Positions 54,728-59,060 of a stretch of DNA of 64,000 nucleotides are shown in pieces. A program made the translations under genes and the position numbers. Numbering within the stretch: the first letter of the stretch is position 1; the number at the start of each line of letters is the position of its first letter. A model generated the notes under the pieces. It was not told where the DNA came from and searched no databases. It saw only the letters and a list, made by a program, of their open reading frames with translations. Origin of the DNA: Candidatus Pelagibacterales bacterium (GTDB lineage Bacteria > Pseudomonadota > Alphaproteobacteria > Pelagibacterales > AG-422-B15); NCBI GenBank assembly GCA_028412835.1, contig JAONQW010000001.1, positions 75,617-139,616 on the forward strand, in the 5' to 3' direction.

Positions 54728-55495
54728 TTACGCTTTCTCTTTAATAGCAGGCTGTTCAGCAGTTTCAGTGACAACTTCATCTACCTTCTTTGTATTATCA
54801 TCAAAAGAAATATCGCCACCACTGTTGTTAATAGCTTCTCTAACTAGTCTACAATAAAGGTTTATAGATTTTCTAGAGTCATCGTTACCTGGAATTGGAT
54901 AGTCAATTAAATCAGGATCACAATTTGTATCAATAATACCAATAATTGGAATATTAAGATTTATTGCCTCAGCAATTGCAATATGCTCTAGCTTAGTATC
55001 GATAACAAAGATTAAGTCTGGCGCTTTTTGCATTTCACTTATACCACTAAGAGAGCGAACAAGTTTTGTATGTTTATTTGTTAACTTTAATATCTCTTTT
55101 TTTGTAAATTCATTATTAGGATTAGTTTTTAAGACTTCAATCTCTTTCATTTTAGTGATTGATTTTTGAATAGTTGAATAATTAGTCATCATTCCACCAA
55201 GCCATCTATGATTCACATAATACTGGTTAGTGTCTTTAGCTAAATCAGCAACTTGTTGGGCGGCTTGTTTTTTTGTTGCAACAAATAAAATCTTACCGCC
55301 TTTTGCTACAGTTTTCTGGATAGTATCTAAGGCAGTTGAAAGCATGCCCATAGTTTGAGTAAGGTCAATAATATGGACGTTTTCACGAACACTGTGAATA
55401 TACTGTTCCATTTTTGGATTCCATTTTTGCGTTTTATGACCAAAATGAACTCCACATTCGATTAATTCTTTAAGATTGAAGTTAGGTATTTCCAT
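54728..55495 (-). CDS. rpsB: 30S ribosomal protein S2
   Basis: The 255-residue protein begins LKELIECGVHFGHKTQKWNP, contains ENVHIIDLTQTMGMLSTAL near residue 36, LFVATKKQAAQQVADLAK near 69, YVNHRWLGGMMTNYSTIQKS near 93, and IGIIDTNCDPDLIDYPIPGND near 188. It has a variable acidic C-terminal tail. It leads the rpsB-tsf-pyrH-frr series. A structured leader upstream (55501-55570) can pair with its ribosome-binding site and is probably regulatory. Confidence 0.97.
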   Translation of the reverse strand: MEIPNFNLKELIECGVHFGHKTQKWNPKMEQYIHSVRENVHIIDLTQTMGMLSTALDTIQKTVAKGGKILFVATKKQAAQQVADLAKDTNQYYVNHRWLGGMMTNYSTIQKSITKMKEIEVLKTNPNNEFTKKEILKLTNKHTKLVRSLSGISEMQKAPDLIFVIDTKLEHIAIAEAINLNIPIIGIIDTNCDPDLIDYPIPGNDDSRKSINLYCRLVREAINNSGGDISFDDNTKKVDEVVTETAEQPAIKEKA

Positions 55496-55500
55496 AATGT

Positions 55501-55570
55501 ATTCTCCGGTTATCCTCGCACAGCATTTACACCCTTATCGGGACCGGACAGCCTAAGCTATCGCTATGTG
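55501..55570 (-). promoter_or_regulatory. rpsB leader RNA with pseudoknot over the ribosome-binding site
   Basis: In the transcript, CACA-UA-GC (55570-55563) pairs with GCUGUG (55524-55519), enclosing a five-pair hairpin AUAGC-UUAG-GCUGU and a small hairpin CCC-GAUAA-GGG (55542-55532). Between these hairpins CCGGU (55547-55543) is complementary to ACCGG (55510-55506), which overlaps the GGAG ribosome-binding site (55507-55504). That pairing crosses the outer stem, forming a pseudoknot. Such a fold would block initiation when stabilised, for example by S2, as known for rpsB-tsf autoregulation in gammaproteobacteria. Pairings are seen in sequence; function is inferred. Confidence 0.65.
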
Positions 55571-55583
55571 ATTTATGAACTAT

Positions 55584-55619: not shown

Positions 55620-58600
55620 CTAGCAAAGTTCTACACTCTCTATTTCAGGAATATTTCTAAGTTTTTCAATCAAAATATCATTGATCAGGAATTTTTCACC
55701 TATCTTTATAGTTTTTCCGTCAAATATTAATAGAATTGTTCCCTCTCCCTCAACAATCTCCATCTCTTTGATGGCTTGAACTGCCTGTATTGAATTGGTA
55801 ACTATTTTAATTTTCTTATTAAGAGGCTTTGAAGGACTATTTTCATTAAATTTTACTATATCATCGAGATTGTATACTTTTTTTATTTCAACCCTTGTTT
55901 GCCCATTGTCTTCAGTAAAATCTGCACCAACAACATAAGATTGGCCAACAATTAACATGTCCCGATATTTTCTCAAATTTGCTTCAAAAATAATTCCTTC
56001 ATAAATAGAACTAGTATCAGAAAAGTTTAAAAAAGCGTAAGCATTACCACGAGCAGATCTCTTTTCTTTTTTAGCCAATAAAGTTCCTGCTACTAAAATA
56101 TTTTTACTATTTTGTATCTCCTTAGATTTGAGAATTGTCATATATTCTCTTACATTATTATTTATTAAATTATTAGTGTATGCGGCAAGTGGATGGCCAG
56201 AAAAATAAAAACCAACTATTTGAAACTCTTTAATAAGTTTTGTTGCCTCTGACCATTTTTCTGTTTTTAAAAAATCAAATTCAAAAGAACCAGTATTACC
56301 AAATATATCGCCTTGATTACTATCAGTTTTAATATTGAAATCTTTTATAGCTTTAACAATTTCATTTGATTGATTGAATATATCTTCTCTTTTAATACCA
56401 AGCTCGTCAAAAACTCCTGCACAAGCTAAAGCTTCAAGTGTTTTTTTATTTGCAATTGAGCCACTTACACGTCCTAAAAAGTTATTAAAAGACGAAAATA
56501 ATCCACCTTTATTTCTTTCTTCTATTAATTCTTTCATTGACTCGATACCAACATTCTTGATTGCACCAAGAGCATATTTAATACCATTATCATCAGTTAC
56601 AAAATAAACGTCAGAGGTATTAATGTTGGGTGAATATAATTTTATTTTCATCCTAGACAATTCCTGTTGAAATGTAGCTAGTTTATCAGTGTTATTTATA
56701 TCTAACGTCATCGAGGCAGCAAAAAATTCAAGTGGATAGTGCGTCTTAAGATATGCAGTTTGAAATGAAATCAAACCATATGCAGCAGCATGGCTTTTAT
56801 TAAATCCATAATCAGCAAACTTTGCTAATAAATCAAAAATATTTTGCGCTTCATTGTCTTTAATTCCATTTTCTATGCATCCAGAAACAAATCTTTTTCT
56901 TTGGTCCTTCATCTCTTTTTGTATCTTTTTACCCATTGCTCGTCTTAATAGATCCGCTTCACCATCTGAATAACCAGATAACTCCCTAGCAACACCCATT
57001 ACTTGCTCTTGATAAACAATCACACCATAAGTTTCTTTTAAAATATTCTCTAGTCTTGGATGAAGATACTCAGGTTTTTCTCTTCCATGCTTTCTTTCAA
57101 TGTATGTTGGTATATTCTGCATTGGACCCGGCCTGTATAATGCAACTAGAGCAATAATATCTTCAAGTGCATCTGGTGTCATTTGCCTTAAGGTCTCTTG
57201 CATACCAGGACTTTCTAATTGAAAAATTCCTGTTGTTTCGCCACTACTCAAAAAATCAAATGTTTTTAAGTCTGTGAGATCAATCTTATTAATATCAAAA
57301 TCAATTCCTTGATTAGTTATTAACTGAACGCAATTATCTATGAGAGTAAGAGTTTTAAGTCCAAGAAAATCAAATTTTACGAGACCTGCTTTTTCAACAT
57401 GCTTCATATCAAATTGTGTTAGATATGTTTTAGTGTCTGGATCACTATACAACGGAACATCTTTAAATATTTCATCTTTTGAAATAACAACACCTGCAGC
57501 GTGAATTGATGTATGTCTTTTTAAACCCTCAAGTCTTAATGCAATATCTAGAAGCTTTTCTACTTTTTCATCATTATTAGCCTCTTCGGATATTTTGGGC
57601 TCATTATCTATGGATTCTTGTAAAGTTAATGGTCTAGAGGGATCGAATGGAATTAATTTACACAAATAGTCAACCTGACCATACGGAATGCCCAATACTC
57701 TTCCAACATCTCTTAATACAGCTCTAGCTTGTAATTTTCCAAAAGTAATAATTTGAGCAACTTGATTTTCGCCATATTTTTTAGAAACATAATCTAAAAC
57801 TTCGTCGCGTCTATCTCGGCAAAAATCTATATCAAGATCCGGCATGGAAACTCTTTCTGGGTTAAGAAACCTTTCAAATATTAACCCAAATTTAATTGGA
57901 TCAATGTCTGTTATGTCTAGTACCCAAGCAACTAAAGAGCCAGCCCCAGAGCCTCTTCCAGGACCTACTGGTATCTTATTATTTTTTGACCATTTTATGA
58001 AGTCTGCAACAATCAGAAAGTATCCTGAATATTTCATATTAATAATGATATCTAATTCTTTTTGGAGCCGATCATGATAGTTTTTCGAAATTTCATCCTT
58101 TGACTCAACTATACTTTCAATATTAAATTTAAATTCTAAGCGTCTTTGTAAGCCTTTCTTTGCATCTTCAATAAGGATATCATTTTCAGACTTATCTTTC
58201 GTAGAAAAATTTGGAAGAGTTGGTTCCTTTGGTTGAGGTCTTGAGGAACATCGTTTTGCGATTTCAATAGTGTTTTGAATTGCCTCTGGTAAATCAATAA
58301 ATGTTTCTAACATTTCTTCAGATGATTTAAAGTATGTTTCTTTAGGAAATTTTTGTCTATTTGCTTGAGAGAGATATTCTTTTTTATCAATACATAATAG
58401 TGCTTCATGAGCATTATAATAATCAGGGTTTTCAAAGCAAACCTCATTAGTTGCAACTAATGGAATTTCATTTTGATAAGATAATTTTAAAAGTAATTTC
58501 TCTGATTGAATTTGAACCGGATCTCCAATTCTTTGAATTTCAATATACATATTACTATTAAATTCATCTTTAATATTATTAAGTAAACTATTAGCCCAGT

Positions 58601-59060
58601 CATATTTGTTATGAAAAAGTAGATTATTAAAAATATTTTCATAGCCACCTGTAAGTAAAATTAGACCTTCCTTATGAGTAAAAAGCTGTTCCAAAGTAAT
58701 AAAAGCATTATCAGATGAGTGTTGCGTATAAGATATAGAATTCAAATATAATAAATTTTCATAACCTCTATCATTTTTAGAAAGAAGATTAATACAGAAG
58801 TAATTGTTGGAATCATTCTCTGGGTCAATAACGTATTGGTTTGGTGTTTTAATTCTTATTTTTGCACCAATGATGGGTTGAATTCCAGCCTTAGAAATAG
58901 TTTCAGAAAACTCCAATGCACCGAATAAATTGTTATTATCAGTCACTGCAATTGCAGGCATATTATTATCTGCGCACAAGTCTGCGATTTTTTGTATTGT
59001 TAAAGCTCCCTCAGATAGTGAATAGTCACTTTTTGTGTTTAAATGAATAAAATCGTTCAA
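55620..59060 (-). CDS. dnaE: DNA polymerase III alpha subunit
   Basis: The 1146-residue replicative polymerase has an N-terminal PHP domain (1 to about 270), the C-family polymerase core with GPGRGSGAGSLVAWVLDITD near residue 363, catalytic aspartates in MPDLDIDFCRDRRDEV near 401, QVAQIITFGKLQARAVLRDVGRV near 430 and ALYRPGPMQNIPTYI near 636. After these come the helix-hairpin-helix and OB-fold (about 985-1065). PHP motif I reads HLNTKSDYS, without the metal-binding histidines. It overlaps lolD by 4 bp. Proofreading must come from a separate DnaQ, not in the window. Confidence 0.96.
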   Translation of the reverse strand: MNDFIHLNTKSDYSLSEGALTIQKIADLCADNNMPAIAVTDNNNLFGALEFSETISKAGIQPIIGAKIRIKTPNQYVIDPENDSNNYFCINLLSKNDRGYENLLYLNSISYTQHSSDNAFITLEQLFTHKEGLILLTGGYENIFNNLLFHNKYDWANSLLNNIKDEFNSNMYIEIQRIGDPVQIQSEKLLLKLSYQNEIPLVATNEVCFENPDYYNAHEALLCIDKKEYLSQANRQKFPKETYFKSSEEMLETFIDLPEAIQNTIEIAKRCSSRPQPKEPTLPNFSTKDKSENDILIEDAKKGLQRRLEFKFNIESIVESKDEISKNYHDRLQKELDIIINMKYSGYFLIVADFIKWSKNNKIPVGPGRGSGAGSLVAWVLDITDIDPIKFGLIFERFLNPERVSMPDLDIDFCRDRRDEVLDYVSKKYGENQVAQIITFGKLQARAVLRDVGRVLGIPYGQVDYLCKLIPFDPSRPLTLQESIDNEPKISEEANNDEKVEKLLDIALRLEGLKRHTSIHAAGVVISKDEIFKDVPLYSDPDTKTYLTQFDMKHVEKAGLVKFDFLGLKTLTLIDNCVQLITNQGIDFDINKIDLTDLKTFDFLSSGETTGIFQLESPGMQETLRQMTPDALEDIIALVALYRPGPMQNIPTYIERKHGREKPEYLHPRLENILKETYGVIVYQEQVMGVARELSGYSDGEADLLRRAMGKKIQKEMKDQRKRFVSGCIENGIKDNEAQNIFDLLAKFADYGFNKSHAAAYGLISFQTAYLKTHYPLEFFAASMTLDINNTDKLATFQQELSRMKIKLYSPNINTSDVYFVTDDNGIKYALGAIKNVGIESMKELIEERNKGGLFSSFNNFLGRVSGSIANKKTLEALACAGVFDELGIKREDIFNQSNEIVKAIKDFNIKTDSNQGDIFGNTGSFEFDFLKTEKWSEATKLIKEFQIVGFYFSGHPLAAYTNNLINNNVREYMTILKSKEIQNSKNILVAGTLLAKKEKRSARGNAYAFLNFSDTSSIYEGIIFEANLRKYRDMLIVGQSYVVGADFTEDNGQTRVEIKKVYNLDDIVKFNENSPSKPLNKKIKIVTNSIQAVQAIKEMEIVEGEGTILLIFDGKTIKIGEKFLINDILIEKLRNIPEIESVELC

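Follow-up and report, generated by a model that had tools for sequence, protein, structure and literature searches.

The rpsB motif, a leader RNA that includes a pseudoknot, was described from the gap between dnaE and rpsB of “Candidatus Pelagibacter ubique” and is present in most Alphaproteobacteria (Meyer et al. 2009, PMC2704228). The rpsB leader of E. coli responds to ribosomal protein S2 (Aseev 2008, as cited in Meyer et al. 2009, PMC2704228, and in a review). According to the review, S2, helped by S1, represses rpsB-tsf via this leader; the operator does not include the ribosome-binding site (RBS), and how repression works is unclear. We found no test of S2 binding or regulation in the literature for any SAR11 bacterium.

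The DNA analyzed here, a stretch of 64,000 nucleotides that we call the window, comes from an uncultured marine SAR11 bacterium of the family AG-422-B15. The closest relatives of its rpsB gene are 84 to 88% identical to it, and identity is approximately 55% to the order's other family, which we name Pelagibacteraceae proper. An earlier note had proposed that the rpsB leader in the window folds into a pseudoknot and that this alphaproteobacterial form may be undescribed. The form was in fact already reported by Meyer et al. 2009 (PMC2704228), and related Rfam families exist. Because that paper described the motif, we regard the leader as a further member of it: the feature is real and largely known, the SAR11 copy of the rpsB leader motif.

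The leader lies on the minus strand in the dnaE-rpsB gap, with the end of dnaE at 55620. Read from 55576, the minus strand is AUAAAUCA-CAUAGC-G-AUAGC-UUAG-GCUGU-CCGGU-CCC-GAUAA-GGG-UGUAAAU-GCUGUG-CGAGG-AUA-ACCGG-AGAAUACAUU-AUG, and its parts are listed in Table 1. Between 55570 and 55625 on the same strand, TTGAAT followed approximately 17 nt on by TAAATG is a possible promoter that would start the transcript just before P1; the second box reads TACATG and TACACG in the two relatives from the genus. In these three genus members, TTGAAT plus TAAATG or TACATG in the interval from dnaE to the leader suggested a conserved promoter, which was not retained, as it lacked support from a consensus scan.

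Table 1. Features of the rpsB leader and its neighborhood (positions in the window)
Feature	Position	Strand	Remark
rpsB leader RNA (rpsB motif)	55496..55576	-	81 nt; last base adjoins the rpsB ATG
rpsB (ribosomal protein S2)	54728..55495	-	followed by tsf, pyrH, frr
dnaE	55620..59060	-	upstream neighbor, as in “Ca. P. ubique”
P1 5' strand CAUAGC	55563..55568	-	partner 55519-55524; 100% of cells paired, 28 family sequences
P1 3' strand GCUGUG	55519..55524	-	same count as P1 5' strand
P2 5' strand AUAGC, 4-nt loop UUAG	55557..55561	-	invariant in AG-422-B15 family
P2 3' strand GCUGU	55548..55552	-	family alignment
Pseudoknot 5' strand CCGGU (J2-3)	55543..55547	-	invariant in 90/90 SAR11; class-wide covariation
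P3 5' strand CCC	55540..55542	-	third pair CG in 6/28, UA in 20/28
P3 3' strand GGG	55532..55534	-	family alignment
Purine-rich unpaired CGAGG, conserved	55514..55518	-	GAGG/GUGG/GAUG in relatives
Pseudoknot 3' strand ACCGG	55506..55510	-	covaries with 5' strand across the class
GGAG, Shine-Dalgarno candidate	55504..55507	-	half within pseudoknot

Membership in the motif is indicated by several features of the leader. It sits directly upstream of rpsB, ending one base before the ATG, and a five-pair pseudoknot (CCGGU/ACCGG) connects J2-3 to the 3' extension of P1. It was also recognized by models from other lineages, with modest scores and rough E-values. Two covariance models built without the AG-422-B15 family, one from Pelagibacteraceae (R1; 24.2 bits, E = 5.9e-5) and one from other Alphaproteobacteria (R2; 17.6 bits, E = 0.004), each found the leader as their sole match in the 64 kb. 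R2 misses the E. coli leader, known in Rfam as t44, and the case for homology with t44 is therefore built on their common anatomy and on what has been published. The Rfam search suggested in the earlier note turned up related families, RF01815 (rpsB) and RF00127 (t44), neither of which matched the window copy. With RF01815, the window copy did not reach the gathering score of 40. Other alphaproteobacterial leaders matched this family with up to 43.5 bits, some above the threshold; below it were Pelagibacteraceae leaders (34.8 and 37.5 bits) and, weakly, AG-422-B15 leaders (22.6 to 26.4 bits). RF00127 gave 83.5 bits on the E. coli control, reached its gathering threshold nowhere in the window, and matched none of the other leaders scanned. 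Both families are typed as sRNA genes, not as cis-regulatory leaders.

We compared upstream regions from 35 genomes of the AG-422-B15 family, 55 of Pelagibacteraceae, 88 of other Alphaproteobacteria, and E. coli K-12. The earlier note had staked its structure on conservation of CCGGU/ACCGG and on compensatory changes among aligned relatives, and both were found: all 90 SAR11 leaders carry this pairing, and compensatory changes occur in P1 and the pseudoknot. Covariation is silent on the pseudoknot within SAR11, because it is invariant there. The same letters are found in 72 of the 88 other alphaproteobacterial leaders, and another nine pair perfectly with different letters in the same place (CCAGU/ACUGG in four, CUGGU/ACCAG in three, and UCGGU/ACCGA and CCGAU/AUCGG in one each). 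By eye, the pseudoknot is also present in most of the last seven, such as L113 with ACUGG, and absent from L180. The E. coli pseudoknot is GGGGU/ACCCC. When P1 and the pseudoknot were aligned across the other Alphaproteobacteria, 98.6% of cells were paired and 9 of 11 pairs were changed on both sides, a score attained by 0 of 500 shuffles; slid versions were 24 to 45% paired. The segments between P1 and the pseudoknot differ in sequence and length in these leaders. P1 covaries in Pelagibacteraceae too, and inside the AG-422-B15 family covariation involves P1 as well as a single pair of P3. P2 is beyond the reach of covariation because it is invariant in that family.

P2, P3, and CCGGU/ACCGG are present as drawn in the earlier note; P1 needs one revision. 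It had drawn P1 with a bulge, as CACA-(UA)-GC/GC-UGUG, a register that breaks in some relatives (97.0% of cells paired, one covarying pair). The contiguous helix CAUAGC/GCUGUG is better: it is paired in every cell of the 28 family sequences, three of its pairs are changed on both sides, and the minimum-energy structure predicted for the 82-nt leader contains it. The resemblance of CAUAGC to GAUAGC and of GCUGUG to GCUGUC led us to weigh a swap in which the 5' strand of P1 pairs with the 3' strand of P2. This pairing would be broken in 11 of the 28 sequences, where P1 ends in AAC/GUU and P2 stays GCUGU.

The pairings might instead reflect chance complementarity within a GC-richer intergenic gap, and the nested folding energy of a 108-nt piece, which is ordinary (z = -0.52), gives on its own no support for structure. 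However, the view of the earlier note that the pairing set is unlikely by chance was borne out. Defined by thresholds chosen after the motif had been seen (P1 of at least 6 pairs, P2 of at least 5, P3 of at least 3, and a pseudoknot of 5 with at least 4 GC), the set recurs in 5 of 3,000 dinucleotide shuffles of the leader and in 1 of 4,000 random 81-nt stretches of the window. Chance, to which we assign a negligible probability, is already refuted by the covariation seen separately in three sets (the AG-422-B15 family, Pelagibacteraceae, and other Alphaproteobacteria). The proof of the predicted structure is comparative. The alignments support a structured rpsB leader with a predicted pseudoknot touching the RBS, which is conserved in every one of the 90 SAR11 leaders and recurs with compensatory changes across the Alphaproteobacteria.

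What such a leader does is suggested by its E. coli relative, for which the S2 autoregulation cited in the earlier note is reported; for SAR11, we infer that S2 binds, that it represses, and that the pseudoknot itself does the blocking. Free S2, in excess over 30S subunits, would most likely bind and stabilize the folded leader. Because half of GGAG, the only Shine-Dalgarno-like element, lies in the 3' strand of the predicted pseudoknot, the stabilized fold would keep ribosomes from loading on rpsB, and output of S2 and the downstream operon would fall. We consider it probable that the leader is a SAR11 copy of the known motif working in this way. A 5' structure that stabilizes the transcript or takes part in its processing, outside the control of S2, seems improbable. 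Any stable 5' structure could protect an mRNA, and we found no S2-binding test for SAR11, but the position before rpsB is kept across the class, an unpaired GNGG stretch and AACCGG are conserved in the leaders, and the E. coli leader responds to S2.

The case for blocking by the pseudoknot itself turns on the RBS. ACCGG and GGAG share two bases, the closing GG of the former being the opening GG of the latter. In the AG-422-B15 family, GGAG overlaps the pseudoknot in 35 of 35 leaders, with no second Shine-Dalgarno sequence before the start, and the AGAA following ACCGG is invariant. The gap between the pseudoknot and the start is 7 to 10 nt in this family and 6 to 10 nt in Pelagibacteraceae; its median is 16 nt in other Alphaproteobacteria, and it is 24 nt in E. 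coli. The 16S rRNA of a member of the same genus ends in ACCTCCTT, which is able to pair with GGAG. Given the short gap, the overlap with the only GGAG, and this 16S end, direct occlusion of the RBS by the predicted pseudoknot is plausible in the AG-422-B15 family. GGAG is altogether absent from most Pelagibacteraceae leaders. Immediately ahead of the anti-Shine-Dalgarno sequence, the 16S 3' end shows a C-to-T change: most Pelagibacteraceae have GGATTACCTCCTT where the AG-422-B15 family, together with one other genus of the order, has GGATCACCTCCTT.

S2 might instead regulate rpsB through a fold in which the pseudoknot is merely part of the shape that S2 binds, with the RBS not directly covered, as is thought for E. 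coli; we hold this to be a serious possibility, at somewhat less than even chance. Of 80 other alphaproteobacterial leaders, 65 have a separate Shine-Dalgarno sequence downstream of the pseudoknot, as does the leader of E. coli, where the operator excludes the RBS (review), and the pseudoknot is still conserved in these leaders. Use of Shine-Dalgarno sequences is also weak in the window. Of 60 open frames with 120 codons or more, only 6 carry an SD-like 4-mer (AGGA, GGAG, or GAGG) within the 15 bases that precede the start region; shuffles lead one to expect 4.7%, and some starts are wrong, the first ATG of each frame having been taken. The rpsB GGAG is therefore unusual in the window, and, since 54 of the 60 genes do without a Shine-Dalgarno sequence, it may matter little for initiation. 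Against a role in S2 binding alone are the 7- to 10-nt gap, the 35 of 35 overlaps with the only GGAG, and the invariant AGAA. Our tentative proposal, which falls short of an even bet, is that SAR11 has merged operator and Shine-Dalgarno sequence in a shortened leader, and that S2 would repress directly, by holding the pseudoknot closed on the sole GGAG.

The leader agrees with the Meyer motif in its gene, its place in the dnaE-rpsB gap, its P1, P2, and P3 junction, and its five-pair J2-3 pseudoknot, and RF01815, although filed as an sRNA gene, matches the leaders of relatives at the same place. The leader differs from the Meyer motif in P2, which has approximately five pairs (AUAGC/GCUGU, invariant in the family) versus three in “Ca. 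P. ubique” by the paper's description (PMC2704228), and in the AGAA after ACCGG that yields GGAG. This pseudoknot over the only GGAG in the AG-422-B15 family may be a new detail. The covariation confirms that a second SAR11 family has the pseudoknotted S2 leader, whose original report, with the pseudoknot, came from P. ubique. The scans also expose a gap in Rfam coverage, as SAR11 rpsB leaders fall below the threshold or are missed. With t44, the S2 operator of rpsB-tsf, the leader shares its position, the order of P1 and a GAGG stretch, and the place of the pseudoknot, whose letters differ. Unlike the window leader, t44 has a separate Shine-Dalgarno sequence inside its 24-nt downstream gap. 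A compact form with its pseudoknot on the RBS would ease testing of how S2 represses, and, if true, the merged operator and Shine-Dalgarno sequence would represent a variant of the mechanism that differs from that of E. coli, whose RBS is not within the operator.
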